Source of the DNA: Antrihabitans stalactiti
GTDB lineage: Bacteria > Actinomycetota > Actinomycetes > Mycobacteriales > Mycobacteriaceae
Assembly: GCF_012932915.1 (NCBI RefSeq)
Contig: NZ_VCQU01000004.1
Span: 558,001-622,000, forward strand
Reading direction: 5' to 3'
DNA: 64,000 nucleotides
The notes under the pieces: generated by a model
The model's database searches: none
The model's input: only the letters and a program-made list of their open reading frames with translations
Told to the model about the DNA's origin: nothing
Translations under genes and position numbers: made by a program
In this document: piece by piece, positions 22,539 to 64,000 of the stretch
Position numbering within the stretch: position 1 is the stretch's first letter
Layout of the letters: every line of letters begins with the position of its first letter

Positions 22539-22642
22539 CAGAGCTCGACTCCTCGCCCGTGGGCATCTGCCCGCGATATCACGTACATCCGAAACGCCCC
22601 GGCGCGACGATCGCGCCGGACCTGATTACGACGGTCAACGGC
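22539..22642 (-). promoter_or_regulatory. NRPS-2/NRPS-3 intergenic hairpin and RBS
   Basis: The 104-bp gap holds a perfect 9-bp inverted repeat, CCGGCGCGA (22599-22607) and TCGCGCCGG (22611-22619), with a 3-nt loop. The RBS GAGGAG lies at 22549-22554. The hairpin lacks a real U-tract, so it may act as an mRNA processing or partial attenuation site rather than a full terminator. Confidence 0.5.
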
Positions 22643-25600: not shown

Positions 25601-28600
25601 CCGGCCCGCACTCAAGCCTGGCTGCCCCACATAACCTCGCGACAGCTGTTCACCCTGCACGTAGATCTCGCCCGGCACACCCACTGGGACAGGACGTAAC
25701 CGCGCATCGAGCACCACAGCACTCAACCCCGGCAACGCGCGACCGATCACCGACGCCGCTCCCGTGCGAGCATCCTCCGGCGTGACCGTCACGAACGAAA
25801 CATGCACCGTCGTCTCGGTGATCCCGTACATGTTCACCAAGCGCGGCGTTCCATCAGGGTAAAGCTGGAACCAGCGCGACAACTGCCCGAGATCGAGTGC
25901 CTCGCCACCGAAAATGACGTGGCGCAAGGACAATTCGGCCTCCACCAACCGCTGTGCCTCGGCGAACTGATAGAACGCCGACGGCGTCTGGTTGAGCACC
26001 GTGACCTTCTCCGCCGCCACCAATGCCACGAAATCGGCGGGCGAACGCGAAGTGAGGTAGTCCACCACCACGACGGACCCACCCCGAGTCAGCGGACCCC
26101 ACAATTCCCACACCGAGAAATCGAAGGCGTACGAATGGAACATCGTCCAGACGTCGCTCTCGTCGAACTCGAACAGCGGCTGCGTATTCGCGAGCAACTC
26201 CACGACATTGCGATGAGCTACCGCCACGCCCTTCGGCCGCCCGGTCGACCCCGACGTGTAGATCACGTACGCCACGTTCGACGACCGCAGTGGCGCCACC
26301 CGATCCGCGTCGGTCACGACGGAGGCATCGAACCCGGATACATCGATCTCGTCGACCAACACCACCGGCACGGTCTCCGGAATCGTCACCTCCACAGCTG
26401 AACTCGACACCACACACACCGGCGCAGAATCCGTCAACGTGTACGCGATTCGGTCCGCAGGGTAGGTCGGATCCACCGGCACGTATCCGCCACCGGCCTT
26501 CATGACCGCCAGCAGCGTCACCACCAGTTCGGCATCCCTTTCGAGCACCACGCCGACCAACTTCTCCGGACCGACGCCCACCGAAATCAGGTACCGCGCA
26601 AGACGGTTCGACCGCGCAGCGACCTCGCCGTACGACAACCGCTCACCACCGAATACCACTGCCACGGCATCGGGGTTCGCTGCCGCGCGCGCGTCGAACA
26701 TCGACACCAACGTCAGGGCCGAATCGACCTCGACCCCAGCCGAATTCCACTCTCGCAGCACGCGCTCACGCTCGGCTGCACCCAGCAGATCGATATCGCC
26801 GACCACCACCGCAGGATCCGCCGCGACCGCTGCCAGTACCCGCACGAACCGGTCCGCGATCAACGCCACCTGGTCGCGCGCCACCACCGACGGCAGGAAC
26901 TCGAAGGTGAGGTGCAGTTGTGCTCCCGCACCGACGATCAGGGACAACGGGTAGTGCGGCGAATCGTTGGATGCGATGCCTTCGATCGACATCCCCTCGA
27001 TAGCACCGGCCTGTTCGGCCAACCCAGCAGCGTCCACCGGATAGGACTCGAACACAGTCAAGGTGTCGAACAACGCTCCCGCACCTACGGCACGCTGAAT
27101 GTCGGCCAGACCCACGTAATGGTGATCGAGTAAGTCCGCCTGCTCGCCCTGCAACCGCACCAACAACGACTCGACGGGTTCGTTCGCATCGAATCGCACT
27201 CGCACCGGCAGCGTGTTGATGAACAAGCCGACCATCGACTCCACGCCGGGCAACTGCGGCGGACGACCCGACACGGTCGCACCGAACACCACGTCATCGC
27301 GACCGGTCAACCGGCCCAACAACATTCCCCACGCCGACTGGACGATCGTATTCATCGTCACACCCAGCCGCGCACCCAACGACGCCAGCGCAGCCGTCGC
27401 GTCCTCTTCGAGGCCCACGGCGTAATCGTCTGTACGAGTCGTCACTGCCGCAGCAGGATCGCTCGGCACGAAGATGGTCGGCTCCGCGCCGGACAGCGCC
27501 CGCGACCACTCCAGCAACGACGCCGCCGGATCCTCTTGCGTCAACCAGGCCAGATACGACCGATACGACCGCGCGCGACCCAATACGGACGCATCCCCGC
27601 GCGTCGCGTACAGGACCAGCAAGTCCTTCATCAGCAACGGCATCGACCAGCCGTCGAGCAGAATGTGGTGATTCGACGCCACGAGCTTGTAGGTATCCGC
27701 GGAAGTCTTGACCAAGGTAAATCTGATCAGGGGCGGTTGGGCGAGATCGAAATGGGTGGCCTGATCGGTCATGAGCACGTCGGCGAGGGCGCGGTCGCGA
27801 TCCTCCGGGGCTAGCTCACTCAGATCGACCTCCCGCCACGGAACGTCCACCGACTCGACGACGACCTGCACCGGGGCACCGGCAGCGTCGGTGACGAAAG
27901 CGGTCCGAAGGTTCGGGTACCGGTCCAGCACACCCTGTGCCGCGGCACGCAACCGGCTCGCGTCCACAACGCCGGCAAGGTCGATGACGACCTGGACCGC
28001 ATACACATCGACCGACGCCTGCGCCAACAGCGCATGGAACAACAACCCGGATTGCAACGGCGCCAATGGCCATACATCGACCAGGCGACCGAACCGCCGC
28101 TCCCACTCGAGCAGATCCTGCTGCGATACCGACACCAGGGCAACGTCACTCGGGGTCAAACCACCCGCGTCAGGACGCTGCGCATAGGTCGCCAATCCGC
28201 CAAGCGACTCGACCCACAGCTCCGCCAGCGCCGTGGCATCAGCTTCCGAAAGTACCTCGGACGCATAAGCGAACGACCCGGACAGTGCCGCACCGTCGGG
28301 AGCGTCCGCGACGACGACGTTGATGTCGACGATCCGGTTCGCAGGCATATCGGGATCGAGTTCTGCGGCCACCTCGGTCAACTCGCCGCCGGGCAGCCAG
28401 CCCAGTTCTGCGAACGCATCCGGCACGCTTTCGCCACCGACCCGGCCGAGATAGTTGAAACTGATCTGGCCGTCAGGTTTACCGGCCAACTGCTCGCCCG
28501 TCTCGGCGTTGAGGTAGCGCAGCAACCCGAAGCCGATGCCCCTGTCCGGGACCTCCAGCAGAGCTTCCTTTGCGGCTCGCATCGCAGCACCAGCCGACGG

Positions 28601-31600
28601 GCCACCGTCGATGGCATCGACGACGTCGACGCCGTCCAGACCCAGTCGCACCGGGTATCCGGTGGTGAACCAGCCGACCGTTCGTGACAGGTCGGCTCCC
28701 GGCACCACAGCTTCTTCACGACCGTGACCTTCGAGGTGAATCAGCGGTGGCTCGACGGCGATTCCCCGCAATTGACGCCAACGCGAAAGCGCCAGCGCCA
28801 GACCGGCAAGCAGACCGTCGTTGATGCCACCCCGGAACAAGCCCGGCAACGTCGTCGACAACACCGCGGTCACATCGACAGGAACTCGGACCTCGACCCG
28901 CTTGACCGTCGCGACGACGTCGACAGTCGGATCGAACGGCCGCGAACCCAACAAGGGGTCCGGCCCGTCGAGGATCCGCTGCCACACCGGCAGTTCGGCC
29001 ACCCGCTCGGCCGATATCGCCTCGTCGGCCAACGCGTACGCCCAACGCCGCATCGACGTACCGACCGGCGCCAACTGCGGCCTCTGGCCCGCCGCGATCT
29101 GCGCCCACGCAGTGACGAAGTCTGGCAACAAGATTCGCCAGGACACCCCATCCACCACGAGGTGATGGGCCACGATCAACAGCTGACCCGCACGATCGGG
29201 CCCGCGGTCCAACCACACGAACGCGAACATGACGCCGCCCGTCGGACTCAACCGACCGAGCGCAGAATCCAGCGCCGCAGACGCGATCGCCGCGATCGAG
29301 GCGTCATCGACAGCGCTGATATCGACCCGATCCACCAACGCATCCACATCCACCGCACCCGGTGCCGCGGCGTCCAGTCCCCACAGACCTGCGTTGTCAC
29401 GGACTAGCCTCGATCGCCACACATCGTGGTGATCGACAACTGCGGCAATGGTTTTCACGATCCCGGAGCGCTCGATCCCGACGGGCAACACCACCGAGAT
29501 CGTTTGGCTGTTCCGGTCCGTGGTTCCCGGTCCTTCGACTACAGACCGCGCAAACGGCAGCAACGGCATCCAGCCAACGCCGCCACCCGGCAACTCTTCG
29601 AGCACGACAGCAACGGAATCCTCCGTCAGCTGCGCGACCTCGGCCAGTCCGGCAACTGTCCTCCGCTCGAAAACATCGCGCGGGGAGAACACCACACCTC
29701 GAGCCTTTGCCCGCGACACCAATTGGATCGAGATGATGCTGTCGCCACCGAGGGCGAAGAACGAATCGTCCACGCCGACTCGCTCAGCACCGAGGACGTC
29801 TGCAAACACCCCGGCGATCACGGTTTCGATCTCTGTCTGCGGGGCACGGAACGCTGTCGCGCTGGTGAATTCCGGATCTGGCAACGCCTTACGATCCACC
29901 TTGCCCGATGCGTTCAACGGCAACTCATCGAGAACCCGAATATGCACCGGCACCATGTATTCCGGCAACTCACGCGCCGCTGCCGCGGTCAGTTCCGCCA
30001 CGTCGATGGTGGCGTCGGCGGCTGGCACCACATACGCAGCCAACTGATCGGCGCGAACCAGCACGACGGCCTGCGACACCGAATTTTCTGCGACCAACAC
30101 GGCTTCGATCTCACCGAGCTCGATACGCAATCCGCGCAACTTCACCTGGAAGTCGGTGCGGCCGATGTAGATCAGCTGTCCATCCGCCCGCCACGACACC
30201 AGGTCGCCGGTGCGATAGAACCGTGCGCCGGCCGCGCCGAACGGATTCGCGACGAACCGGTCGGCAGTCAGGTCCGGCCGCGCGACATAGCCGCGTGCCA
30301 GTTGCTGGCCTGCGAGGTACAACTCCCCGGGCACACCGATCGGCACCGGACGTAACCCTGAATCGAGCACGTACACCTGCGCATTCCACACAGGGGTACC
30401 GATCGGCGCCGCGGAACCCGAATCCTCCAGGAGCGAAGAGGCAGTCGCGTGCACGGCGAACTCTGTTGGACCGTAGAGATTGTGAATTTCGGCGCCGGGC
30501 AGCAGCTTTCGCACACTTCGCACTGTTGCGGTCGGGAGTGCTTCACCCGCAGCTTGGATCACCCGCAACGATCCGCACCGCCCAGGAGTCAGACTGTCGA
30601 CGAAGACCGCGAGCATCGAGGGCACGAAGGACACCATCGTCACCGACTCGGCATCGATCACGTCGGCGATGTACTCGGGATCACGGTGGCCATCCGGCGC
30701 CGCGATGACCAAGCGGCCACCGGTGATCAACGTTCCGAAGAGTTCCCACACAGACACGTCGAAGGTGAACGGCGTCTTCTGCAAAACGGTGTCTGCGCCC
30801 GACATGTCGAATCGGTGCGTCAACCACAGGACTTGGTTCACGACAGCCGCGTGCGATACCGCGACTCCCTTCGGCCGACCCGTCGATCCTGACGTGAAGA
30901 TCGCGTACGCCGGATTCGCAGCACGCAGCGGCACGATCCGCTCAGCGTCCGTCACCGGCGAGTCGGAGAAGTCGGCGAGATCGAGCGACTCGACATTTTC
31001 TACCGGAATGCTCGCGTGGAAATCGACACTGTCGCGCTGTGTCGACAACACCAACACGGGCGATGCCGTCTGCAGTATGTGGTCGATCCGATCGGCAGGC
31101 TGATCGACATCGATGGGCACGTAGGCCCCACCTGACTTCACGACGGCATAGATCGCCACGAGCAGTTCGACTGATCGGCGAATACCCAGGCCTACCGACG
31201 CCTCCGGACCCACCCCACGCGAAATCAGATAGCGGGCAAGTTGATTCACGCGCGCGTCGAACTGCGCGTAGGTCAACGATTCACCGTCGAAGGTGACCGC
31301 AACGGATTCCGGCGACCGCAAGACCTGCTCGTCGAACAACGAAACGAGCGTCGTGTCGCCGTGAACGGAATGCTCTGTCGCGTTCCACTCCTCGAGCACC
31401 AACCGTCGTTCGTCGGCGTCGAGGACATCGAGATCGGCCACCGCTGTCGTCGGATCGGTGGTGATCGACTCGAGGATTCGCAGCATCCGCTCGACAATCG
31501 ATTTCACCTCCGCCTCGCCGAAAAGCGACTGCAGGTACTCGACGGAGATGCGCATCTGGGCAGCAGCGGTGATCAGCAGAGAGAGCGGGTAGTGCGGGGC

Positions 31601-34600
31601 GTCGTTGGAGGTGACGCCGTCGATCGTCAGGCCCTCGATGGCACCGGCCTGCTCGGCCAATCCGGCAGTGTCGACCGGGTAGGACTCGAACACGGTCAGC
31701 GTGTCGAACAACGATCCGGTGCCGGTGACTCGCTGAATATCAGCAAGCTGAATGTAATGGTGCTCGAGTAGGTCGGCCTGCTCACGCTGCACGCGGACGA
31801 GTAGGTCCTCGAGGGATTCCGACGGCTTGATTTGGATCCGGACCGGCACGGTGTTGATGAACAGACCGATCATCGACTCGACACCCGCGAGTTGCGGTGG
31901 TCGACCCGACACCGTCGCACCGAACACGACATCGGTGCGGCCGGTGAGTCTTCCGAGGAGAAGACCCCACGCGGTCTGCACGACAGTGTTCACAGTGATG
32001 CCCAGACGGGCACCGAGCGCCGTCAGTCCCGCTGCAATCTGCTCGTCGACGATGGCAACGACTTCGCCTGTTCGTTGCGTGGTCGCCAGGCCCGCTCCGG
32101 AGCGCGCAAGCAGCGTCGGCTCGTCGACTCCGTCGAGCGCGTTGGCCCAGACCTGCAGCGACGTGGCGGGGTCTTGCTCACCGAGCCAGGAAAGGTAGGA
32201 CCGATACGGCCGCGCCCGACCCAACAACGCCGGGTCGGCGTGCGTGGCATACAGGACCAGCAGGTCCTTCATCAGCAACGGCATCGACCACCCATCCAGC
32301 AGGATGTGATGATTGGCCATCACCAGCTTGAACACACCCTCACCGACGGTCACCAGCAGGAACCGCAGCAACGGCGGGCTGGCGAGGTCGAAGTTGGTGG
32401 CCTGATCGGCGGCCAACAACTGTGCCAACGCCGCTTCCCGCTCCCCTTCCGGCAACGTGGTCAGATCCACCTCACGCCACGGCACGTCGAGGTGATCGAG
32501 CACCACCTGCACCGGAGTGCCATCGGCGTCGGTGAGGAACGCGGTCCGCAAGTTCGGGTACCGATCCAGCACCGCCTGCGCCGCCGCGTGCAACCGCCCG
32601 GCGTCGAGCGCACCGGACAGATCGAGCACCACCTGGATCGAGTACATGTCCACCGAGGCCCCGGCGAGCATCGCGTGAAACATCAACCCCGACTGCAACG
32701 GCGCCAACGGCCAGACATCGACCACACCGTCGAAGCGGGACTCGAACTCCTCGATCTCGGCTTGTCCCAACGACACCAAACTCAGATCCGACGGCGTCAA
32801 CCCACCCGCACCGGGCGAGGACGCGTAGGCCGCGAGTGCGGTCAACGCCGCCACCCACAACTCCGCCAACCTTTGCACCGCGTCACCCGAGATCACCTGC
32901 GAGGCGTAGGCGAACGAAGCACCCAACGACTGCCCCCCACCGTCCTCGTCGGTGACGATGGCGTTGATATCGACAACCTTGTTCGCCGGCATATCCGCAT
33001 CACCGGGGGCACTGAGCTCACCCAACCCACCAGCGGGGGTCCAGCCCAACCCGGCGACCTCGTCGGGCACACCGTCCAGCGACACCTGGCCGAGGTAGTT
33101 GAAACTGAGTTGCCCATCCGGCAGTGCGGCCAGCACCGGCGCGGTGTCGGGGTTGAGATGCCGCAGCAACCCGTACCCGAGGCCCTTGTCCGGAATCGCC
33201 AGCAACGCTTCCTTCACTCGTTTGAGCGCGGCCCCCGCTGCCGGGCCACCCGCCAGCGCGTCAGCGATATCGATCCCGGTCAGGTCGAGTCGGACCGGGA
33301 ACGCGGTGGTGAACCACCCGACCGTGCGGGACAAGTCCGCCCCGGCGATCACCTCTTCCTCACGACCATGACCTTCCAGCTGAAGCAACGTCGCCGATTG
33401 GGTGACCCCGCGCTCGGCGCGCCACGCCGCGACCGCCATTGCCAAGGCAGTCAGTAGTCCGTCGTTGACGCCGCCGCGCAACAACCCGGGGATGGTTTTC
33501 AGCACCGCGGCGGTCACGTCGGCCGGGACCCGGACCTGCAACCGCTCGACGGTGGCGACGACGTCGCGGGCCGGGTCGAACGCTCGCGACCCCAGTACCG
33601 GGTCCGGACCGTGCAGGACCGATTGCCACCAGCCCAGTTCCGCGACCCGAGATGGTGTGGAGGCTTCGGTGACGAGGGCGTGGGCCCAGCGCCGCATCGA
33701 TGTGCCGACTGCCGGTAGAGCCGGGGTTTGCCCCGCCGAGAGTTGGGCCCAGGCGGTCACGAAGTCGGGCACCAGGATTCGCCACGACACCCCGTCGACG
33801 ATCAGGTGGTGGGCCACGATCAGCAACCGACCCGTCAGTGTCGGGCCGCGGTCGAACCAGACGAACCGCACCATCCGGCCCGTGACCGGGTCCAACCACC
33901 CCATCGCCGCGTCCAACGCCGCAGACCCCACTGCTTCGGTCGTCGATTCGTCGGCGGCAGGGTCGATGTCCATGACCGTGACCAGGGTGTCGGCATCCAC
34001 CGACCCCACCGGCAAAGTTGTTACACCCCAACCGGTTTCGGGGTCGTGCACCAACTGTGAGCGCCACATGTCGTGGCGATCGAGCACCGCCGCGATCGTG
34101 GACACCACGCCGGCACGGTCGATCCCGACCGGCAACTCCACCATCATCGTCTGCGAGTTGCGGGTGAACCCGCCCGGACCCTCGATCACCGACCGCTCGA
34201 TCGCGGTCAACGGCCGCCACCCGACACCGCCGCCTGGGAGTTCTTCCAGGACAACAGCAACCGAATCCGCCGCCAGCACGGCGACCTCGGCCAAACCGGC
34301 AACGGTCTTGCGTTCGAACACATCTCGCGGGGAGAACACCACACCCCGCGCCTTCGCCCGCGACACCAACTGAATCGAGACGATGCTGTCGCCACCCAAC
34401 GCGAAGAACGAATCATCCACACCGACCCGGTCCACCCCGAGCACCTGCGCGAACACCTCACCGATGATCTGCTCGACCTCGGTCTCAGCCGCCCGGAACA
34501 CCTTGTCGGACACAAACTCCGGCGCCGGCAACGCCTTACGATCCAACTTCCCGTTGCCCGTCAACGGCAACGCCTCGAGCACCATCACCGCATCCGGCAC

Positions 34601-37600
34601 CATGTAGGAGGTCAAGAACCCCGCCACGGTCTCCGAAATCTGTGCTGGTTCCAGCGTGGCGCCCGCCTCGGGAACGACATACCCCACCAGGCGATCACCG
34701 GTGCGCTCGTCGGTCCGCACGATGGCCACCGCATCCGCGACACCCGCGCACCGGATCAACGCCGACTCGATCTCGCCCAACTCGATCCGGAACCCACGCA
34801 ACTGCACCTGCGCATCCGAACGCCCCGCGTACTCGAGCACCCCAGCCGCGGTCCACCGCGCCACGTCGCCGGTCCGATACAGCCGAGAACCCTGGTCCCC
34901 GAACGGATTAGCCACGAACCGGCCCGCGCTCAGCGCAGCCCGACCGACATACCCTCGGGACAGCTGTGCCCCGGAAACATAGACCTCACCGGCCACCCCG
35001 ACCGGCACCGGCGACAAGCGCGCGTCCAGCACGAACACACCCAACCCGGGCAGGCCACGACCGATCACCGACCCACCGCCCGCAGCCACCATCTCCGCGG
35101 TCAGAGCTTGGAACGACACGTGCACCGTGGTCTCGGTGATGCCGTACATGTTCACCAACCGCGGACCGGCGTCACCGTGGCGGGCCACCCACCCCGACAA
35201 CCGGCCCAGATCCAGCGCTTCACCACCGAACACGATGTGGCGTAACACCAACGGCGCAAGTTCCGTGGCGTCGGCGGTCTCGGCTTCGGTGGCGACGCGG
35301 TCGGCCTCGGCGAACTGGTAGAACGCCGACGGGGTCTGGTTGAGCACCGTCACGCCTTCACGGCGCACCAGTTCCACAAAATCTTGTGGCGAGCGGGAGG
35401 TGAAGTAATCCACCACCACCAACCGCCCACCGAACAGCAACGGACCCCACAACTCCCAGACCGAGAAGTCGAACGCCGGCGAATGGAACATCGTCCACAC
35501 ATCCGTGGAATCGAACCCGAACTTCGGCGCCGCGTTCGCCATCAACTCGACCACATTGCGATGAGCGACCGCGACACCCTTCGGCCGACCCGTCGACCCC
35601 GACGTGTAGATCACATACGCCACGTCTTGTGATCGCAACGGGGACAGTCGATCTGCGTCCGTGACCGGTGCGGCGGAGAATTCCGACACCTCATCGATCA
35701 ACACTCGCAGGGCCGTCACCGACTCCGGCACCGCCGACGCCGATTCGGAATCGGTGAGCACACAGACCGGTGCGCTATCGGTCAGCGTGTAGGCGACGCG
35801 TTCGGCCGGGTAGGACGGATCCACCGGCACATACCCACCGCCAGCCTTGAGCACCGCCAGGATCGCGACCACCACATCCAGTGACCGGCCCAGCACCACA
35901 CCGACCAACGACTCCGGACCCACCCCCACCGAAATCAAATACCGCGCAAGCGCATTCGCACGACCGTCGAGCTCGGCATAGGTCAACGACACATCCTCGA
36001 ACGTCACCGCCACCGCATCCGGGGCGGCAGCGACCTGCGCGTCGAACAACGACACCAACGTCACGTTCGGATCCACCACCACGCCGGGGGCCAGCGCCCA
36101 CGACGACACCAACAACTCCCGCTCCCCCGCGAGGAGCAAGTCCACATCGCCGACCGCAGTCGCAGGATCGGCGGTGAATGCCTCGAGGACACTGACGAAC
36201 CGGTCCGCGAACGACACCATCGTCGACTCGTCGAACAGATCGGTGGCATAGGTGAACGACGCCGACAACCCGGCCGGTTCCGCACCGTCACTGGGGTTTT
36301 CGGCCAATGTCAGTTGCAGGTCGAACTTCGCGACCGCAGCATCGAACTCGACCGCAGAAACGGTCAGACCGGGAAGCGAGAACTCTGTCGCCGCCAGATT
36401 CTGGAACGTCAGCATGACCTGGAACAGCGGGTGCCGCGCTGTGGAGCGTTGCGGGGCAAGGACTTCCACCAACCGCTCGAACGGCACATCGGCATTGCCG
36501 AACGCGTGCAGATCCGTCTCCCGGACCCGGCCCACCAACTCGGCAAACGACTCACCCGGTAGCACCTCGCTGCGCAGCACCAAGGTGTTGACGAACATGC
36601 CAATCACATCGTCGAGGGCACGTTCACCACGACCCGCGATCGGCGTGCCGATCGCAATGTCGCTGGTCCCCGACAACCGCGCCAACAGTACCGCCAACGC
36701 GGTGTGGACGGTGATGAACAACGTCGCATGGTGCGTACGGGCGATGTCGAGCAATGCCCGGTGAATGTCGGCGGAAATCTCGAAATCGACGTTCGCGCCA
36801 TGGTTGGACGCCGACTGCGGCCGCGGCCGATCGGTGGGCAGATCCAACTGCTCGGGCAGGCCAGCGAGCGTGGCCGACCAGTAGGCTTCCTGCTGCGCAA
36901 TCAGCGACCCGGGGTCGTCCTCGCTGCCGAGTACCTCCCGCTGCCACAACGCATAATCCGCGTACTGCACTTCGAGCGGAGTCCACCCCGGCGCCTCACC
37001 GGCAACGCGGGCGGCGTAGGCCACCATCACATCGCGAGCGAGCGGACCCATCGACCACCCGTCGGACGCCACGTGATGGACGACGAACACCAGCACGAAC
37101 TCGGACGGGTCGATTTCGAACAGCGCGACCCGGACCGGGACCTCGGTCGTGACATCGAACCCGGCAGACACCAATTCGCCAACGCGAGCGATCACCTCGT
37201 CACCGGACACTGGGCTCGGTGTCAGGTCCACCGCCATATCGGTGACCGGAAGGATCACCTGGGACGGAACACCGTCGGTTTCAACGTAAATCGTGCGCAA
37301 CACCTCATGGCGAGCCAGGAGGTCACCAACCGCCGCCCGCAAAGCCACCAAATCCAGTTGCCCCGTGAGCCGGATCGCGATCGGGATGTTGTAGGCCGCC
37401 GACTCCGGATCGAACCGGTTGAGGAACCACATCCGCTTCTGCGCGATCGACAACGGCACCACCGATGGACGTGGCCCGGCCACCAACGGCGCCCGACCAT
37501 CCACACCCGCGTGTTGTTCCACCCGCACCGCCAACGCACCCACCGTCGGCGCCTCGAACAAGGTGCGCACCGCGATCCGGGTCTCCAACGCCGCACCCAA

Positions 37601-40600
37601 CCGCGCCGCCACCTGCGTCGCGATCAACGAATTCCCACCCAACGCGAAGAAATCGTCGTCGAGCCCGACCCGATCCACACCCAACACCTCGGCGAAGGTT
37701 TGGGCCACGATCTGCTCGATAGGAGTCTCCGGCGCCCGGAACTCCCCCGCCTCGAACACCGGCGCCGGCAACGCCTTACGATCCAGCTTCCCGTTCACCG
37801 TCAGCGGCAACGCCTCCAACACCACCACCGCCGCCGGAACCATGTAAGACGGCAACTCCCGCACCGCCGCCGCCCGCACCACAGCCGCATCCACACTGTC
37901 TGCCGTGTCACCCACCAGATAGGCCACCAACTGATCCCCGGTCCGGGAATCCCGACGCGACACCACCGCCACCTGCGCCACCCCCGGCTGAGCCGCCAGG
38001 ACCGACTCGATCTCACCCAACTCGATCCGGAAACCCCGCACCTTCACCTGGAAATCGGTGCGCCCCACATACTGCAAACTTCCCGAGGCGTCCCACGAGA
38101 CCAGGTCACCGGTGCGATACAACCGGGCACCCGGTGCCCCGAACGGGTTCGCCACGAACCGGTCCGCCGTCAGGTCGGGTCTTCCGTGATACCCGCGCGC
38201 CAACTGCGCCCCGGCCAGATACAACTCACCGGCCACCCCGACCGGCACCGGCCCCAACCGACCATCCAAAACATAGACCTGGGTGTTCCACTCCGGTGAC
38301 CCGATCGGCACCGACACCACATCCGCATCCGACACCGGGTGGGCGGTCACCGACACCGCCGCCTCCGTCGGGCCGTACAAGTTGTCCAGCCGCGCCTGGT
38401 TGTGGTTGCGGAACCGCTGCGCGGTCGCCGGGGGCAACGCCTCACCGATCGCCAACACCTGGCGTAGCGAGGACCCCAGCACCCCGCCCGACTCGATCAG
38501 CAACGCCTGCAACATCGACGGCACCACATGCAGCACCGTCACCGCGTGGGTTCCGATCAGTTCGTTCAAATACTGCGGGTCCTGATGACCGTCGGCCCGC
38601 GCGACCACCACCGCGCCACCGGAGACCAGCGCGGACCAGAACTCCCACACCGACAAGTCGAACGTCGCCGCGGTTTTCAGCAGCACCGCATCCCCAGCAC
38701 CCAACCCGTAGGCGGACTGCTTCCACTGCAGCTGATTCGCTACCGCGCCGTGGCTGACCGCGACACCCTTGGGCACACCGGTCGACCCGGACGTGAAGAT
38801 CACATACGCCGTCGTGTCCGGTCGCACCGGACCACGCCGCTCCGCATCGGTCACCGTCGACGCATCGACAGCACCGAGATCGAGGGTGTCGATCCGGACG
38901 ACAGTCCGGTCCCCGTCGACGTCGAATCCGTCACGCGCAGTGGTCACTACACAGACCGGTGCCGCGGTGTCGAGGATGTGGGCGACCCGGTCGGCCGGAT
39001 GATCGAGATCGATCGGCACATAAGCCCCACCAGCCTTGACGATCGCATACATCCCGACCAGCAGATCGGTGGACCGGCGAATCGCCAACCCCACCAACGA
39101 CTCCGGACCCACCCCCACCGAAATCAGATGCCGCGCCAGCCGGTTCACCCGAGCATCGAACTGCCCATACGTCAGCGACTCACCCTCGAACACCACCGCC
39201 AACGCATCCGGATCACGAGCAACCTGCGCATCGAACAACGACACCAAAGTGGCGTCCGGAACGGTCGGTCGATCCGTCGCATTCCACGTGGTCAATACCG
39301 TTGTGCGCTCATCGGAATCGAGCAACGGAATGTCGCCGACGACGACGGACGGGTCCGCGACGACGGCACTCAGGAGGCGGGCGAAGATGTCCACGAACCG
39401 CTGGACCGTGGACTCGTCGAACAGATCTGTTGCGTAGGTGAAGATTCCGGTGATCCCGGCTGGGCTGCCATCGTCGTTACGGCGATCGTTCGCGATCAGG
39501 TGTAGATCGAACTGCGAGATCTGCTGATCGATTTCGATACCGCTGATCTGCAGTCCGGGCAGTTCCATGGTGGTCTGAGCCAGATTCTGAAACGACAAAC
39601 CCACCTGGAACAGCGGATGCCGCGCTGTCGATCGCGCCGGATTCAGAACCTCCACGAGACGTTCGAACGGCACATCCGCATTCGCGAACACTTCGAGATC
39701 GTTCTCGCGCGCGCGGCCGAGCAACTCGTCGAATGTCGAGTCGCTGTCGACCTGTGTGCGGAAGACCAACGTGTTGACGAACATTCCGATGAGGTCGTCG
39801 AGCGCCCGCTCACCACGACCCGCGATCGGCGTTCCGATCGCGATGTCGTCGGTGCCGCTGAGACGAGCGAGCAGTACCGCCAAGGCGGTGTGCATCACCA
39901 TGAACAACGACGCGTTGCGGCTGCGAGCCAACGCCATCAACGCCTGGTGTGTGTCGTCATCGATCGAGAGCGGCACGGATCGGCCGACCAGCGACTGCGA
40001 CGCCGGTCGCGGCCGGTCACTCGGCAGATCGAGCTGGTCCGGCAAGTCGGCGAGCGCCGTTTTCCAATACGCCACCTGGCCCGAGGCCAGGGACTGCGGA
40101 TCATCTTCGCTACCAAGCAGTTCGCGCTGCCACAATGCGTAGTCCGCGTACTGCACTGCCAGCGGCTCCCAGCCCGGCGCCTCGCCCTGGGCACGCGCCG
40201 CGTACGCGATCATCACGTCTCGTGCCATCGGTCCGACAGACGAACCGTCGGCACCGATGTGATGGACAACCATCGCCAGCACATACTCGGCTGCACCGAT
40301 CTCGAACAGCGCAACCCGGAGCGGCACCTGGGTCGTCACGTCGAAACCAGCGGTGCCGAAATCGAACAGGCGGGCCTGAAGGTCCTTCTCCGGCAGTACA
40401 ACCGGCGTCAGATCGATCGGCACATCGGTGGCAGGCAGAATCACCTGGACCGGTCCGTCGACCGTTTCCGGGTACACAGTGCGTAGCACTTCGTGGCGGG
40501 CGATCAGGTCTGTGACGGCGGACTGCAGTGCGTCGACGTCGAGGTTGCCGACCAATCGGATCGCGACCGGAAGGTTGTAGGCCGAGGACTCCGGATCGAA

Positions 40601-43600
40601 CCGGTTCAAGAACCACATTCGCTGCTGCGCCAGCGACAACGGCACCCGATCCGGGCGTGGCTTCGCCACCAGTGCCGGCCGTCCACCCGCACCGGCATGC
40701 TCTTCGACCCGCACCGCCAGCGCCCCGACTGTCGGGGCCTCGAAAATCACTCGCACGGGGACTCGGGAGTCGAGCGCTGCACCGAGTCGCGAGGCGACCT
40801 GCGTCGCGATCAGCGAGTTGCCACCCAAGGCGAAGAAGTCGTCGTCGACACCGACGCGGGCGACGCCGAGCACGTCGGCGAACACCCCTGCCACGATCTC
40901 CTCGATCGGCGTGGTCGGTGCCCGGAACTCCCGCACCTCGAACACCGGCTCCGGCAACGCTTTACGGTCCAACTTGCCGCTGGTGTTGAGCGGGAACTCG
41001 TCGAGCACCAACACCGCCGACGGAATCATGTAGGACGGCAACCACCCACCGAGTGCGGCGGTCAACTCGGCTGCGGTCGGCGCAGACCCGGGCACCGGGA
41101 TGACGTAGCCGACCAGTTGGTCACCGGTGCCGGTCGCGCGGACCACTGCCGCGGCCTGACTGACGCCGCCTTGTGCGAGCAGGGCGGTTTCGATCTCGCC
41201 GAGTTCGATGCGCTGGCCGCGGAATTTCACCTGGAAGTCGGTGCGGCCGATGTAGTGCAACACTCCGTCGCCGCGCCAGGACACCAGGTCACCGGTGCGA
41301 TACATCCGCTCACCATTGGGGCTGAACGGGTTGGCGACGAACCGGTCCGCCGACAAATCGGGGCGTGCCACGTACCCGCGGGCCAACTGGGTTCCGGCCA
41401 GATACAGCTCACCCGCCACCCCGGCCGGGACCGGGCGCAGTCGGGTGTCGAGGACGTAGACCTGACTGTTCCACTCCGGACGACCGATAGGAACGGTCGT
41501 ACCACTACCGGTCGCGGGCCAATAGGTGATCGACACCGCAGCCTCGGTCGGTCCGTACAGGTTGTGCACCGCCGCCGGGCTCAGTCGTGCGAACGCTGCC
41601 ACCGTCTCCGGGGGCAGCGCTTCACCGATGACGAACACCTGCCGCAACGACCCGACCCGGTCGGCATCGACATAGGCGGCGAACACCGCCAGCATCGACG
41701 GCACGAAATCGGTCACCGTCACCGCGTGTTCGGCGATCGTCTCCGCAAGATAGCCCGGGTCGCGGTGCCCGTCCGGGGTCGCCAGAACCAGCGTTGCCCC
41801 CACCCGAAGCGGCAGGAAGTAACCCCACAGCGAGACGTCGAACGTCGTCGCCGTCTTCTGCAGATACACATCCTCGGTGGTAAGTCCGTACTCGGACTGC
41901 ATCCACTCGAGCTGGTTGACGATCGCCTCGTGAGTGACCGCAACACCTTTCGGCCGTCCGGTCGAACCCGAGGTGAAGATCACGTACGCGGTGTTGCGTG
42001 CGCGCAGCGGCGACAGGCGCTCGCTGTCGGCAATCGGCGACGCGTCCAGGTCGTTGAGATCCAGCGCGCCGATGTCGAGCACCGTCACCCCGCTCGGTGC
42101 GGCGAAACCGTCATCCTCGGTCGTCAGGACACACACCGGTGCCGCGGTATCGAGGACGTGGACCGTCCGCTCGGCGGGATGGCTCGGATCGATCGGCACG
42201 TAGGCGCCGCCGGCTTTGACGACGGCGTACATGCCCACCAGCAGCTCTGTCGAGCGGCGCATGGCAAGACCGACCAGCGACTCGGGACCGACACCGAGGG
42301 AAATCAGATGCCGGGCAAGACGATTGACTCGAGCATCGAACTCGGCGTAGGTCAGCCGCTCACCCTCGAACACCACGGCGGTGGCGTCGGGGGTCCGGGC
42401 GACCTGGGCGTCGAAAGCCGGGACCAACGTCAGTGCGGCGTCGAGGGCGTGATCGGTCGCATTCCAGGCGTCGAGCACGGTGGTGCGTTCGGTGTCGTCG
42501 AGCAGTTCGATATCCCCGACCGGGATCGACGGATCGGCGAGGACCGCGGCCAGGACTCGTGCGAACCGGTCGGCGAACTCCTCCACAGTGGAGGGGTCGA
42601 ACAGGTCGGTGGCGTAGCTGAATTCAGCGTGAATGCCCGCGGCGGCGCCGGTGTCGTCGTACTGCTCCACCAACGTCAACTGCAGATCGGTCTTCGCCAG
42701 TTGGGTGTCGAACTCCACCCCACTGATATGCAACCCGGGCAACTCGAGGGAGGCCTGCGCCACGTTCTGGAACGACAACCCGACCTGGAACAACGGGTTC
42801 CGTGCCGTCGACCGCGCGGGATTCAGTACCTCGACAAGCCGCTCGAACGGCACATCAGCGTGGGCGAACGCCTCGAAATCCGATTCCCGCGACGCCGCCA
42901 GCAGCTCGTCGAAGCTGGTGTGCCCGGCCACCTCGGTGCGCAGGATCAACGTGTTGACGAACATCCCGATCAGGTCGTCGAGGGCCCGCTCGCCACGCCG
43001 CGCGATCGGCGACCCGACCGCAATGTCCTCGGTGCCACTGAGCCTGGCGAGCAGCACCGCCAACGCGGTGTGCATGAGCATGAACATCGACGCATTCCGG
43101 CTGCGCGCCAACGCCGACAACGCCCGATGGGTCTCGGCGTCGATGCCGAACGACACCGACTTCCCGACAAACGACTGCACCGCCGGACGCGGTCGATCAC
43201 TCGGCAGATCCAACTGGTCCGGCAACCCTGCCAGCTTCGTTCTCCAGTACGACACCTGCTGGGCAGCAACCGAATCCGGATCGTCCTCGCTACCGAGTAG
43301 TTCCCGTTGCCAGATCGCGTAATCGGCATACTGCACCGGCAACGGCGCCCAACTCGGCGCCTCCCCATGCGCACGCGCCGCATAGGCCGTCATCAGATCC
43401 CGCGCCAACGGCGCCATCGACGACCCATCCGCCGCCACATGGTGCGCGACGAACACAATCACAAAATCGTTGTCACCCAGCGCGAACAACGTTGCCCGCA
43501 ACGGCACCTCGACGGTCACATCGAATCCCGTGGTGGCGAGATCGAGGACCCGCCCGAGCAACTCGCCCTCGGTGATCTGCACCGGCGTCAAATCCGGAAC

Positions 43601-46600
43601 CGCCTGCGACACCGGCAGAATCACCTGATGCGGACCCTGCGCAGTGTTCGGATAGACCGTGCGCAACACCTCGTGCCGGCCGATCAAATCCGACACCGCC
43701 GCACCCATCGCCACAACATCGAGGTCCCCGGTCAACCGCACCGCAAGCGGGATGTTGTCCACCGCCGAGGTGGTGTCGAACTGATTGAGGAACCACATCC
43801 GCTGCTGCGCCAACGACAACGGCAGCCGATCCGGACGCTCCTTGGCGACCAGCGGGGGACGCGCCGGGGCACCGGCCGCGCGTTCCGCACGTGCCGCCAG
43901 GCCTTCGACCGTGGAGGCTTCGAACAGCTCCCGGACCCCGAGCTGCACGTCCAGCGCCGACCCGATCCGCACCACCACCTGGGTGGCGATCAACGAGTTC
44001 CCACCCAGATCGAAGAAATCGTCATCCAAACCCACCCGGTCGATACCGAGGACCTCGGCGTAGACCGCCGCCACCACCTGCTCGGTCGGCGACACCGGAG
44101 CCCGGAACTCCCGCGCCTCGAACACCGGCGCCGGCAACGCCTTCCGATCCAACTTGCCGTTGGCGTTGAGCGGCAACTCCGGCAGCACAACCACCGCATC
44201 CGGCACCATGTAGGACGGCACCGCCCGCCCGACCGCCTCGAGCAGGGCGGGCACGTCGACCTCGACGCCAACGGGTGGGACGACGTAGCCGACGAGACGT
44301 TCACCGAGGCGGTCGTCGCTGCGGACCACCGCGACAGCCTGGGCGACCGACTCGTGCGCGAGCAGCGCGGTTTCGACCTCACCCAGCTCGATCCGCAACC
44401 CGCGCAGCTTCACCTGGAAATCGGTGCGCCCCACATAAACCAGTTCCCCGGCGGCGGTCCAGCGGACCAGGTCACCGGTGCGATACAACCGGGAGCTTTC
44501 AGCGAAGGGGTTGGCGACGAACCGGTCCGCGGTCAAACGTCCGCTGCCGACATATCCGCGGGCCAATTGGGTTCCGGCGACATACAGCTCGCCTGCCACA
44601 CCGACGGGAACCGGGCGCAGCCGGGCGTCGAGCACGTAGGCTTGGGTGTTGAAGACCGGGGCGCCGATCGGGACCGCCACCACATCGTCGGCCCGGCTTT
44701 GTCGGCGGGTGACCTGCACCGTGGTCTCGGTCGGCCCGTAGAGGTTGTGGACGGCGGCGCCGGTCGACTCGGCGAATCGGGTCGCCAACCCTGCCGGCAA
44801 CACTTCACCACCAGCGAAGACGCGACGTAGTCCGGGGATGCCGGTGTCGCCGATGCTGTCCTGCAACACCGCCAGCAACGACGGCACGAACTGGACGGTG
44901 GTGACGTTCTCGGCGGCGATCACGTCGAGCAGGTATGCCGGATCCCGGTGACCGTCGTGACGTGCCACGACGAGTCGGGCACCAGTGAGCAACGGCCACA
45001 ACACTTCCCACACCGACGCGTCGAACGTCGCCGGGGTCTTGAACAACACGGTGTCGGTGGAATCGAGCCGATACTCCGCCTGCATCCACAGCATCTGGTT
45101 CACGATCGCGCGGTGGCTGACCGCCACCCCCTTCGGCCGACCCGTCGACCCCGAGGTGAAGATCACGTACGCGGTGTTGTCCGGCCGCAACGGAGTCAGC
45201 CGCTCCATGGGCGTGATCGGTGCCGCATCGATGCCGGAGAGGTCGAGGTCGTCGATCCGATAGACAGAGCTGTCCCCTGCGCCGACGAATTCGTCACGCG
45301 CTGTGGTCAATACACAGACCGGTGCCGCTGTGGCGAGCACGTGCGCGGTGCGCTCCGCCGGGTGATCGGGGTCGAGCGGCACGTAGGCACCGCCCGCTTC
45401 CAGGACCGCATACATTGCGATGAGGAGATCGGTGGACCGGCGAATCGATACCCCGACCAACGACTCCGGACCGACGCCGACCGAGATCAGGTACCGGGCA
45501 AGCCGATTCACCCGCGCCGAGAACTCCGCATACGACAAGACCTGGCCTTCGAACACGACTGCAGTCGCATCGGGAGTGCGTGCGACCGCCGCGTCGAACA
45601 ACTCGGGCAGAGTTGCCGCGTCCGCCGGATGGTCGGTCGAATTCCATTCGTCGACAACGAGACTGCGTTCCACGCTGTCGAGCAACTCGACGTCACCGAC
45701 AACGACCGCGGGGTCGGCGACCACTGTCCGCAGCAGGCCGACAAATCGATCCGCCAACCCGGCCACAGTGGACCGGTCGAACAGGTCTGTCGCATAGGCA
45801 AGGTGGGCGTGCAGCCCGTCGTCGACCTCGACCAGGGTCAACGCCAGATCGAACTTCGCCGTATCCACCGCGACGTCGACCGCCGAGACAGTCAGGCCCG
45901 GCAACTCGAACGCCGTCTGACCCAGGTTCTGCAACGTCAGCATCACCTGAAAGAGCGGATGCCGCGCTTGCGAGCGGGCCGGGTTGAGCACCTCGACAAG
46001 GCGCTCGAACGGCACATCCGCGTGACCGAATGCCCCCAGATCCCGCTCCCGCACTCCTGCAAGGGTTTCCGCGAAAGTCGCCGATCCATCGACGCGCGTC
46101 CGCAACACCAACGTGTTGACGAACATCCCGATCAGATCGTCGAGCGCTGCCTCACCACGCCCGGCGACCGGAGTGCCGATCGCGATGTCGTCGGACCCCG
46201 ACAACCTCGACAGAAGCACCGACAACGCTGAGTGCACGACCATGAACAACGTCGCACCATGCGCCTGCGCCAAGCTATTGAGACCGGCCCGCAGATCGGG
46301 GTCGAGGTCGAACTCGTAGTCGGCACCACGATTGGACGCCACCGCCGGCCGCGGCCGATCCCGCGGCAGGTCCAGTTGATCGGGCAGATCGGCCAATGCT
46401 GTCGACCAGTACGCCTCCTGGCGGGCGATGATCGAGGTCGGGTCGTCTTCGCTGCCCAGGACTTGGCGTTGCCACAACGCGTAGTCGGCGTACTGCACCT
46501 CCAACGGCGCCCACCCCGGCGCATCCCCCTGCACCCGCGCGGCGTAGGCGACCATCACGTCCCGGGTGAGCGGGCCCATCGAGAAACCGTCGGCACTGAT

Positions 46601-49141
46601 GTGATGCACGACGAAGACAAGGACGTATTCGTCCACCGCACTGGAGATTTGGTAAAGCCGTGCCCGTACCGGAACCGCAACGGTGACATCGAAACCCGCC
46701 GACACGTCGGCGATGATCCGACCGATCACCTCGTCTTCGGTGACCGCGATCGGGGACACATCCACCCCGGCTTCCGCGGCGGGCAACACCTGCTGCCAGC
46801 CGACACCGTTGGCGGCGGGATAGACGGTGCGCAACACTTCGTGGCGCTCCACCACATCGCTCACCGCGGCCCGCAATGCGGCCACATCCAACGCACCCGA
46901 CAACCGGACCGCCACCGGGATGTTGTTCACCGCCGAGGTGGTGTCGAACCGGTTGAGGAACCACATCCGTTGCTGGGCAAGCGATAGCGGCACCCGATCC
47001 GGGCGCTCCAGGGCGACCAGCGCGCGCTGACCGGCCTCCGAGCCCACCGTCGCCAGGGTCGTATCGACCAGGGCGCCGAGTTGACTGACCGTCGGGGCTT
47101 CGAAGAAGTCCCGCACATCGATGCGGACCCCGAAGTCGGTGTTGATTCGAGCGATCGCCCGGGTTGCGATCAGCGAGTTGCCGCCGAGAGCGAAGAAGTC
47201 GTCGTCCACGCCGATCCGGTCGATACCCAACAAATCGGCGAACAGCTTCGCCAGGATTTCCTCGGTGGGTGTCTCGGGTGCCCGGTATTCCTGCGCAAGC
47301 ACCGTGAAATCCGGTGCCGGCAGGGCTTTGCGGTCCAGTTTGCCGCTGGGGTTGAGCGGTAGAGCAGGGAGCGGAATGAACAACGCGGGGATCATGTAGT
47401 CCGGCAACTGATGCCGCGCCACCGACACCAAAGCGTCGGAGTCGACCTCGGTCCCGGGTGTGGGGACGACATAGGCCACCAGTTGGTCACCGGCATGCGG
47501 GTCGGCGTGCACGGCGGCGACAACGTCGACGACCCCGTCCGCGCCGCGCAACACCCCCTCGATCTCGCCGAGTTCGATCCGCAGACCGCGGATCTTGACC
47601 TGAAAATCCGTGCGCCCCAGATACTCGATGATCCCGTCGCCGCGGCGGCGGACCAGATCCCCGGTCCGATACATCCGCTGCCCCGCGGTGAACGGGTTCG
47701 CCACGAACCGATCCGCCGTCAAATCCGGGCGCGCGATATAACCCCGCGCCAACTGCACCCCGGCCAGATACAACTCCCCCGCCACCCCGGTCGGCGACGG
47801 GCGCAACCCGTCATCGAGAACCAGCAACTCCGTGTTCGCCACCGGCAACCCGATCGGGATCGACGCCACATCCTTGTCGGTGACCTGGTAGTAGCTGACC
47901 TCCACCGCCGCCTCGGTCGGCCCGTACAAGTTGTGCAACTGAGCGGCACTGATCTCGCGCAACCGGGCCGCCACCTGCGCCGGCAACGCCTCCCCCGACG
48001 CGAACACGTACCGCAACGACGACACCCGCGCCGCAAGGGGTTCTCCGACATACACCGACAACATCGACGGCACGAAATGCACCGCCGTCACACCGTGTTC
48101 GATCATCGTCGCCGCCAAATACCCCGGATCCCGATGACCGTCCGGCTCCGCAATCACCAACGACGCCCCGACCTGCAACGGCCAGAACAACTCCCACACC
48201 GACACATCGAAAGTGAACGGCGTCTTCTGCAACACCACATCACTACTGGTGAGCTGGTACTGATCCTGGCGCCAGGTCAGATAGTTCAGCACCGACCGAT
48301 GCGACACCACCACACCCTTCGGGCGACCCGTCGACCCGGACGTGAAAATCACATACGCCGCAGACTCCGGCCGCAACGGAGCAATGCGGTCCGCATCGGT
48401 CACCGGATCCGGCGAGAACTCCGACACATCAAGCTGGTCGAGCCGTACCACCGGCACCGTCGAGGACGATGCGAATTCGTCACGGGCGGTGCTCAGCACC
48501 ACCACCGGGTGGCTGGTGTCGAGCACGTACTCGATCCGCTCGACCGGGTGATCCGGATCGATCGGGACATACGCCCCCCCGGCTTTGAGGATCGCGTACA
48601 TCCCGACCAGCAACTCCACCGACCGCCGGACCGCCAACCCGACCCGGGTTTCCGGACCCACCCCGAGACCGATCAAATGCCGGGCCAACCGGTTCGCCCG
48701 CGCATCGAACTCCGCATACGTCAGCGTCGTGTCACCGAACACCAACGCCACCGCATCCGGTGACGCCGCCACCGCACGCTCGAACGCCGCGACCAACGTC
48801 TCCACCACATCGACGGCCGCCGACGCACCGCCGCCGATATCGGTGACCGACACCGCATCCGACACGATCGCCTCGACCACCCCGTCGAGCCCACCCGCCA
48901 CCGACTCCACAAACCCCGGAACCACATCACCCAGCACCACCGGCACCAACGCCTCGGCCGGCAACGCCCCACCCATCGCCGCATCCATCGCCTGCAACTG
49001 CTCGGCCAAAGCGCGATACGTCACCGTCACACCGTCGAAAACCACCACCGCCCGCTCCGGCTCACACTCGGCGACAGCCGCGACCAAACGCGGAATGTCG
49101 GCGACCGTCAGCGTTGGTCGACCGGGGTTACGATCCGACAT
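22643..49141 (-). CDS. NRPS-2: giant synthetase with six complete modules and two split ones
   Basis: An 8832-residue protein, roughly 0.9 MDa, in one uninterrupted 26.5-kb frame. Approximate order: N-terminal stub 1-108; A 110-608, T; C 715-1158, A, T (to 1754); C 1771-2221, A, T; C 2831-3281, A, T; C 3893-4344, A, T, E (to 5441); C 5448-5915, A, T, E (to 6988); C 6993-7461, A, T (to 8061); C 8080-8528; dead A fragment 8541-8832. It therefore receives the chain from a C domain located on NRPS-1 and passes it on from its own terminal C domain to an A-T pair on NRPS-3. All seven C domains and both E domains keep HHxxxDG. ATG at 49141 has GAGAGGA (49149-49155) seven bases upstream. It starts 144 bp after the NRPS-1 stop. 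Confidence 0.95.
22646..23510 (-). other. Dead, truncated A domain at the C-terminus of NRPS-2
   Basis: About 290 residues that align with the N-terminal subdomain of an A domain. [18 protein letters not shown] corresponds to the A1/A2 region. [11 protein letters not shown] and [13 protein letters not shown] align with IEWLVLDSP and FADRSRVLQQDHP of the first A domain of NRPS-3. The ATP-binding core [10 protein letters not shown] is replaced by [11 protein letters not shown]. The domain ends before the YGPTE, TGD and GK(L)DR motifs. It cannot adenylate, yet it is kept in frame without a stop. Confidence 0.85.
23560..24905 (-). other. NRPS module 12, C-domain half on NRPS-2
   Basis: A complete L-C-L condensation domain ([20 protein letters not shown]) that accepts from module 11. 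Its own A and T domains are on the next protein. Its opening resembles that of the C domain at the end of NRPS-1 ([13 protein letters not shown]), the other junction C domain. Confidence 0.85.
24960..28165 (-). other. NRPS module 11 (C-A-T), Thr
   Basis: D-C-L condensation domain ([22 protein letters not shown]) downstream of the module 10 epimerase. Pocket code DFWNIGMVHK indicates Thr. Carrier TLGGNSLSA at about 25075. Confidence 0.88.
28180..32800 (-). other. NRPS module 10 (C-A-T-E), unassigned D-residue
   Basis: D-C-L condensation domain after the module 9 epimerase, with HHILLDG. Pocket code DVWSQALVHK, close to module 1 (DVWSLALVHK), which I cannot assign. The carrier is LGGDSIIS. The E domain has HHLVVDG and LEGHGREE, so the residue should be D-configured. 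Confidence 0.85.
32820..37465 (-). other. NRPS module 9 (C-A-T-E), D-Thr
   Basis: L-C-L condensation domain beginning [13 protein letters not shown] with HHVASDG. Pocket code DFWNIGMVHK indicates Thr. Carrier LGGDSIVS. E domain with HHLIVDG and LEGHGREE. The A domain is a near copy of that in module 15. Confidence 0.88.
34530..36110 (-). repeat. Near-identical Thr A-domain copy 2 (module 9)
   Basis: Partner of 9870-11430. Only the downstream domains differ: here T-E, there T-TE. This places the second recombination boundary around the A-T linker, where the sequences diverge ([14 protein letters not shown] against VSEREFREPRTPIE). Confidence 0.8.
37520..40650 (-). other. NRPS module 8 (C-A-T), unassigned substrate
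   Basis: L-C-L condensation domain with HHIGADG. Carrier LGGNSL near 37630. Pocket code DLWHLILVSK. It shares D.WH.x.L with serine codes (DVWHLSLIDK) but has Ile at 301 and VS at 330/331, so Ser is not safe. Confidence 0.85.
40700..43830 (-). other. NRPS module 7 (C-A-T), unassigned substrate
   Basis: L-C-L condensation domain with HHVAADG. Carrier LGGNSL near 40820. Pocket code DVWDFILVSK, the same as module 13. The two A domains are also alike outside the pocket ([25 protein letters not shown]). Confidence 0.85.
43880..47000 (-). other. NRPS module 6 (C-A-T), Gln/Glu-like code
   Basis: L-C-L condensation domain with HHISADG. Carrier DLGGNSL near 44000. Pocket code DAWQFGLVQK resembles glutamine/glutamate-type codes (compare DAWHFGGVDK for Glu). 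Assignment is tentative. Confidence 0.82.
47070..48815 (-). other. NRPS module 5, A-T half on NRPS-2, Ser
   Basis: First complete A domain of NRPS-2. Pocket code DVWHFSLVEK, one residue from the serine code seen in module 4. Carrier LGGNSL near 47180. Its condensation domain is on NRPS-1. Confidence 0.85.
48820..49141 (-). other. N-terminal A-like stub of NRPS-2
   Basis: About 105 residues preceding the first real A domain. They resemble the first ~85 residues of an A domain ([12 protein letters not shown] matches the LTYxEL region) and then break off. They align without gaps to the C-terminal stub of NRPS-1, with about 28 identities in the first 70 positions by eye. Shared elements include T.AD.PRL.A, VTYR.L.E, AM..MG.AL and VPG. 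Confidence 0.8.
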
Positions 49142-49285
49142 CTTTGGTTCCTCTCACGCGACAGCACATTCAAAGGCAGACGAATGCACTGGCTAACCTG
49201 CCAAGTTGCTGACAGCGGGCGTACGGACGGGGCAATCGAGGCGTTCGGACGCCGCGTTACATCGCTTGGCCATCTTGGTCACGCA
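49142..49285 (-). promoter_or_regulatory. NRPS-1/NRPS-2 intergenic spacer
   Basis: This 144-bp gap contains the NRPS-2 RBS (GAGAGGA, 49149-49155) and a weak 5-bp hairpin (49240-49253). I see no clear promoter or terminator, so read-through from NRPS-1 is likely. Confidence 0.4.

Positions 49286-64000
<14,715 letters not shown>

Follow-up and report, generated by a model that had tools for sequence, protein, structure and literature searches.

The window analysed here is a stretch of 64,000 nucleotides from Antrihabitans stalactiti (positions 558,001 to 622,000 of contig NZ_VCQU01000004.1). Its minus strand, on which all window features described below lie, carries three consecutive genes for nonribosomal peptide synthetases (NRPSs), NRPS-1, NRPS-2 and NRPS-3, and our subject is a pair of mini-domains, or stubs, related to the adenylation (A) domain and found at the facing ends of NRPS-1 and NRPS-2. 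The in-window part of the NRPS-1 coding sequence occupies 49286..64000 and belongs to a frame of 8,496 aa that starts at about 74773, past the window; its stop codon is 49288-49286. NRPS-2 (22643..49141) encodes 8,832 aa, and NRPS-3 (8796..22538) encodes 4,580 aa with an end that, by eye, is thioesterase (TE)-like. Counted by their A3 motifs, there are seven A domains in the whole of NRPS-1, seven in NRPS-2 and four in NRPS-3.

The last condensation (C) domain of NRPS-1 (approximately 49640..50980), with its HHxxxDG motif (HHISGDG) near 50557, has no A3 motif beyond it, and the protein ends in a 99-aa A-derived mini-domain, the C-stub (49289..49585). Past an in-frame intergenic stretch of 144 bp (49142..49285) that contains further stop codons, NRPS-2 opens with a 92-aa A-derived mini-domain, the N-stub (48836..49111), followed by a complete A domain (approximately 47290..48799) that no C domain precedes. 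This A domain has a ten-letter A3 motif at 48317-48346, its translation ends in GKLDRKALP and a thiolation (T) domain follows. Because NRPS-1 ends in a C domain without an A domain and NRPS-2 begins with an A domain without a C domain, the junction divides one module as C // A-T, with the upstream half in NRPS-1 and the downstream half in NRPS-2, as the original prediction had claimed. A frameshift or sequencing error at this point was ruled out by 81 other genomes with the same arrangement. Among the NRPS regions fetched from the source genome, none of the 46 other C-A linkers contained a stub: 44 of the 46 distances from C motif to A motif were 463-498 aa, and the remaining two (710 and 729 aa) belonged to first modules, where the sole match was the start of the A domain. 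One further NRPS of this genome (G000:C26:236614-252981; L018, L019) has a single stop codon within an A domain, giving frames of 2,063 and 3,387 aa, and may be a pseudogene, an error or a recent split.

With the C-stub as the only query against the whole source genome, the N-stub was matched with 37% identity over 84 aa (E 2.3e-12), followed by the N-stub of a paralogue on contig C23 (36%, E 1.3e-10); the best other match was an NRPS on contig C25 (E 2.3e-6). As judged by these alignments, the C-stub is closer to the N-stub than to any A domain of its own genome, and the mutual homology that had been proposed for the two protein ends was borne out. Relationship to A domains was detected with profiles. 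In PDB searches the best matches were A domains of solved NRPSs (E 2.5e-7 for the C-stubs, to LgrA, and E 5.9e-6 for the N-stubs), and the NCBIfam MxcG model matched 21 of 30 C-stubs (best E 3.8e-7), at model positions 456-525 in member 1, a region that we take to be the start of an A domain. Pfam assigned the window C-stub only to AMP-binding, at E 0.094, and gave no match for the window N-stub; at E ≤0.1, AMP-binding was found in 4/30 C-stubs and 1/31 N-stubs.

AlphaFold predicted each stub as a separate unit with the order helix-strand-strand-helix-helix-helix. Ten-residue means of the predicted local distance difference test (pLDDT) were mostly 83-97 for the window pair and mostly 70-90 for a second pair, from R. 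phenolicus. The two stubs were supplied joined via their native intergenic DNA, with stops read as glycine: 270 residues and 12 alignment rows for the window, 199 residues and 12 rows for R. phenolicus, where 18 codons separate the matched stubs. The rows were the window and 11 in-frame pairs out of 42; unpaired stub rows were kept out, 31/62 having aligned to the wrong stub in each of three trials. In Foldseek, the first 41-46 residues of the stub model were placed on A domains at 1.2-2.1 Å in the better short matches (5n9w_A, 6vhy_A, 8r2r_A), the fit over about 68-70 residues was poor (about 5 Å), and no E-value fell below 0.38 with the first model or 0.69 with the second. The second half of each stub is predicted to form helices that do not superpose on A domains, and the catalytic core motifs (A3 SGSTG and later) are absent from the stub sequences. 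Taken together, the profile and model matches indicate that the first part of the stubs shares descent with NRPS A domains. The description of the stubs as A-domain beginnings that break off therefore holds for their first ~45-60 residues, the only A-like portion, and fails for the second half, about half of each stub being predicted as helices of its own.

To place the pair among its relatives, a profile built from three stubs was run on 401 genomes of the same family; at E ≤1e-5 it matched in 176 of them and in 17/31 genera, although the weaker of these matches may be A domains and mostly 12 candidates were scored per genome. We then considered the best-scoring matches of the family, down to E 5.6e-21, which fall at 88 places in 87 genomes (source genome included); this sampling favours true stubs and shows how stubs appear, not how frequent they are. 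At 82 of the 88 places a C-stub was followed by a stop within 0-25 residues and by an N-stub heading the next frame, the N-stub starting 51-231 nt past the matched C-stub; in four pairs the gap between the two stubs was just 17-18 codons. When named genomes were scanned with a 30-member C-stub profile, 42 loci were obtained, all from Rhodococcus, Rhodococcoides or Prescottella and all paired (42/42), with the reservation that these loci were found by their C-stub pattern and that many are the same assemblies as among the 88 places. An earlier scan of contigs with the three-stub alignment had yielded 135 stretches fitting the pattern, none of them confirmed. Thus in orthologous clusters, where the original prediction had proposed to look for them, the stubs are present and alignable, and in the window, at 82/88 places and at 42/42 loci they stand at the facing subunit ends of one assembly line. 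Searches of the order (397 genomes, 86 genera) and of the phylum (396 genomes, 237 genera), in which some genomes were drawn more than once, found matches in 15 and 3 genomes, respectively, all of the same family. In genus g9 (L221 of G363; L223 of G309), a 2,685-aa NRPS frame ends with a divergent C-stub, and the next frame has, by eye, a still more divergent N-stub before its A domain.

Within genera, and with comparisons limited to dS 0.1-1.0, the median ratio of nonsynonymous to synonymous substitution rates (dN/dS) was 0.251 for the C-stub (255 comparisons) and 0.267 for the N-stub (308), next to 0.280 for 200 aa of the flanking C domain (387) and 0.234 for 250 aa of the flanking A domain (369). 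The stubs are under constraint like that of the adjoining domains. These values bear on the alternative put forward in the original prediction, that the stubs are debris, two non-functional remnants of a gene fission through a duplicated A-domain start. Such an origin would account for the A-like beginning of both stubs, and breaks do occur in A domains, as in the contig C26 NRPS; however, non-functional remnants are hard to reconcile with dN/dS like that of flanking catalytic domains, with a pair kept at 82/88 places and conserved over many genera, with a predicted independent fold that includes new helices, or with the retention of both stubs where their genes lie apart (below), and we consider this explanation scarcely credible.

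Mean identity was 38% between the C-stub and N-stub of a pair, compared with 49% among C-stubs and 52% among N-stubs of different genera. A tree was built from 98 sequences, with at most three pairs from each genus and, for genus g9, only the L221 pair. In it, the main N-stubs formed one clade with 98% support and the main C-stubs fell outside it. The longest internal branch (100%) separated all stubs from the A-domain starts of the window; the terminal branch of the divergent G363 N-stub was longer still. Because identity within pairs is lower than identity between genera within either family, and given the tree, the C-stub and N-stub families appear to have parted before the genera did. The term homotypic, which had been applied to the pair, does not suit what look like two families that separated long ago.

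Six of the 88 places are not adjacent pairs. One (L072) is an extra N-stub in G057, a genome whose normal pair is counted as well. In G030 the C-stub gene is found about 11 kb further upstream, beyond ~10 kb of other genes that contain no NRPS motifs. In four genomes (G352, G376, G294 and G388) the N-stub gene is at another locus, and G120 is a fifth such case, all five belonging to one genus; the stub genes are 1.36 Mb (G352) and 1.8 Mb (G388) apart in the single-contig genomes, and in G376 and G294 the N-stub gene is on another contig, in G376 by profile match only. By eye, pnp lies upstream of the N-stub gene in the 4 of these 5 genomes in which that sequence was read (L201-L204). In G033 (L199) a gene that by eye resembles the precorrin-4 methyltransferase gene CobM separates the NRPS with the C-stub from the one with the N-stub. 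All 87 genomes that contribute the 88 places have both stubs, as do G120 and G033; seven genomes keep both without adjacency. We regard this persistence of both where the genes lie apart as the strongest hint that one stub needs the other.

With somewhat more belief than doubt, we favour the explanation that the stubs are a matched docking pair that rejoins the split C // A module. Following this logic, each stub would descend from the opening segment of an A domain, consisting of a helix, a two-strand hairpin and a helix, to which it added further helices; one family would have stayed at the C-terminus of the upstream protein and the paralogous family at the N-terminus of the downstream one. 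The stubs would bind each other and hold the terminal C domain of NRPS-1 beside the A-T pair of NRPS-2, so that one module is rebuilt from two polypeptides and the growing chain is passed to the right partner. Contact between the stubs, its specificity and the dependence of chain transfer on it are steps that we infer. One feature of the sequences fits such a contact: of the 80 pairs fitting the search pattern, 67 combine lysine or arginine in the C-stub with glutamate in the N-stub at one helix position, the others being G/E (9), Q/Q (2), K/A (1) and K/Q (1). We treat this charge pairing as a lead only, related sequences being non-independent.

Several results, which concern occurrence, direct tests of contact, stubs in unsplit proteins and the neighbours of the C-stub in one genus, weigh against docking. 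No match at E 1e-5 was found in 225/401 family genomes, and none at E 1e-8 in the other three genomes of the window's own genus. The window pair itself is K/Q, not K/E, at the charge position. In the two linked AlphaFold runs each stub folded, but neither run placed the stubs confidently against each other (predicted template modelling scores, pTM, 0.40 and 0.45); this bears on, but does not amount to, the lack of interaction on co-folding that the original prediction had named as refuting. In a distance-matrix test, C-stub and N-stub distances had a partial correlation of 0.22 given the flanking domains (81/82 pairs), a value reached by 0/500 permutations, also within genera; the control correlation between N-stub and C domain was 0.32. 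Because this control exceeds the stub pair, the coevolution signal is not specific, and we set it aside as proof of contact.

Stubs also occur inside unsplit proteins. In 18 of 30 genomes searched, two stub matches lay in one open frame of 11,265-11,944 aa, 6.7-6.9 kb apart in 17 genomes and 3.5 kb apart in G019, where the second is weak (E 3.3e-7). The internal stubs that were read, by eye with 500 aa on each side and in full for G025, stand between C and A (unsplit NRPSs of ~11,300 aa; L178-L182, L185, L187-L189, L197, L206-L209, L211-L220, L222, L224), and each fused linker read has one stub where split junctions have two. Single stubs between C and A in unsplit proteins show that retention of a stub does not require a free partner. 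A related NRPS in genus g21 is divided by a C-stub, a stop and an N-stub (L186 of G023, L210 of G080), and among the internal stubs of the fused proteins the first is the best match for both stubs of each locus. For L186, the A part has 65% identity to the one following internal stub Ia of G025, and the C part scores alike against two fused junctions (493 and 496 bits); for L210, the A part is nearer to the other internal junction (54% versus 29-34%). The suggestion from these comparisons that the g21 split is orthologous to one fused junction is only partly borne out.

The unsplit proteins raise the possibility that the stub is a general C-A spacer or platform, which shapes the C-A interface or recruits a third protein, and that its copies in split genes do not bind each other. 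The lack of a confident stub contact in AlphaFold would be expected in that case, as would N-stub distances that track the C domain more closely than the C-stub. A spacer would not, however, need two stubs at each split junction when one serves each fused linker read, nor does it call for two families as distinct as these, whose charges at one helix position are opposite in 67/80 pairs. We think this explanation unlikely, if worth keeping in view alongside the docking pair.

In genus g22 (L111, L114, L116, L122), the frame after the C-stub gene starts with a degenerate A domain and has no N-stub; the L111 frame lacks the SGSTG motif, and the L233 frame, with an A-like start, shows no A3 motif. 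This degenerate-A NRPS is a possible other partner of the C-stub. It suggests a further explanation, in which docking is with neighbours of another kind, the C-stub binding the first A domain of the next protein (or the N-stub together with that A domain), or the N-stub binding the last C domain. The partial correlation of 0.32 between N-stub and C domain points the same way, and so does the next junction of the line, where an A-derived C-terminal element of NRPS-2 faces a stub-less protein starting with a complete A domain. Against it, both stubs are present in all 87 genomes, even with their genes apart, which suggests a mutual need, and we judge such mixed docking improbable.

That element of NRPS-2 is a degenerate N-terminal half of an A domain of ~283 aa (22646..23494) past the last C domain of the protein, with an AMP-binding match at E 2.7e-16 over 79 residues and no SGSTG motif. 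Across the NRPS-2/NRPS-3 junction (22428-23494), which is also C // A, it faces the N-terminus of NRPS-3, an arginine-rich stretch followed by a complete A domain without a stub. We compared this C-terminus with its best 10 loci, weaker matches probably being ordinary A domains in many cases. The best 9 non-self family matches also end 6-29 aa before a stop, and by eye all 10 loci (window included) end in a C domain and a degenerate half A domain. At 9/10 loci the next frame has an arginine-rich stretch (weaker in L060) and then an A domain with an A3 motif; at the tenth such a frame was not found within the locus. Both junctions of the line split modules between C and A, with two kinds of A-derived piece.

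The N-stub paralogue on contig C23 belongs to a 13,051-aa NRPS (G000:C23:227911-267066; L012-L014) that has the same N-stub, is paralogous to NRPS-2 along almost all of its length (77% identity, 8,364 columns) and continues unsplit to a TE-like end; by eye, no NRPS lies in the 28 kb before it. The source genome has one C-stub and two N-stubs, and the A3 motifs of NRPS-1, NRPS-2 and NRPS-3 (7+7+4) and those of NRPS-1 and the C23 synthetase (7+11) both sum to 18. In G057, NRPS-2 and the extra synthetase (L227, L235; G057:C47:103734-117953) are built alike: each carries an N-stub at its head, four A3 motifs and, judged by eye, a degenerate half A domain at its tail. From this architecture the extra protein looks like an interchangeable middle subunit. 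A broader proposal is that the stubs form a new A-derived class of docking element, acting at the C-A boundary within a module and combinatorial in use, with NRPS-1 feeding both the NRPS-2/NRPS-3 line and the C23 line for 18 residues each, and with a second A-derived type serving the next junction. We put this forward tentatively, as a possibility that we are inclined to doubt somewhat; the C23 synthetase could instead start a chain by itself.

If the docking explanation is true, some 90 cognate natural pairs would offer a ready toolkit for splitting NRPS modules at the C-A boundary, and the stubs would show an enzyme domain turning into a connector. It would also predict cooperating giant synthetases in Rhodococcus and relatives whose genes lie far apart and are invisible to neighbourhood-based cluster mining.

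A 2021 review names COM, PAX and beta-hairpin as the NRPS docking types (PMC9113145). In its section 11, COM is placed at junctions between epimerization (E) and C domains, where a helical donor meets an acceptor that lies partly within the C domain, and PAX at junctions between peptidyl carrier protein (PCP) and C domains, as an all-helical three-helix bundle; that section describes neither as A-derived (PMC9113145). The N-terminal docking domains of Kj12, TubC and EpoB have the order helix-strand-strand-helix-helix, that of TubC is a homodimer, and the beta-hairpin type binds the partner's C-terminal peptide, according to a second paper, whose passages on these domains do not describe them as A-derived (PMC6195595). 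Among the titles and abstract openings listed by literature searches of open-licence PMC papers, neither A-derived docking stubs nor docking at a C // A split is described. Scanning 30 C-stubs and 31 N-stubs with Pfam gave no docking family. The PDB profile searches, taken to E 10, matched 49 and 33 sequences, and neither these nor the best 50 of 212 and best 50 of 184 Foldseek matches included a chain with a docking-domain name. Membership of the beta-hairpin docking family was rejected, there being no Pfam or PDB profile match to it and a resemblance in element order only.

The stubs resemble the N-terminal part of NRPS A domains (LgrA, NpsA, tyrocidine synthetase), on which their first 41-46 residues superpose, although the stubs lack the catalytic core motifs and differ in their helical second half. 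With the beta-hairpin domains of TubC, EpoB and Kj12 they share the character of a small folded domain at a subunit end and the alpha-beta-beta-alpha-alpha order, the order of the stubs being predicted and including one further helix; the known domains bind a C-terminal peptide, whereas the stub junction is predicted to have a folded domain of ~90 aa on both sides. COM domains mediate handing over between NRPS subunits, the role proposed for the stubs, but are described at an E/C junction and not at C // A. PAX, a folded C- and N-terminal pair with salt bridges for specificity, would be similar, but is described at PCP/C and is all-helical, in contrast to the predicted hairpin and A-domain origin of the stubs. 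If it works as proposed, the stub pair would act like a docking pair, though not one that the present comparisons assign to any known docking family.

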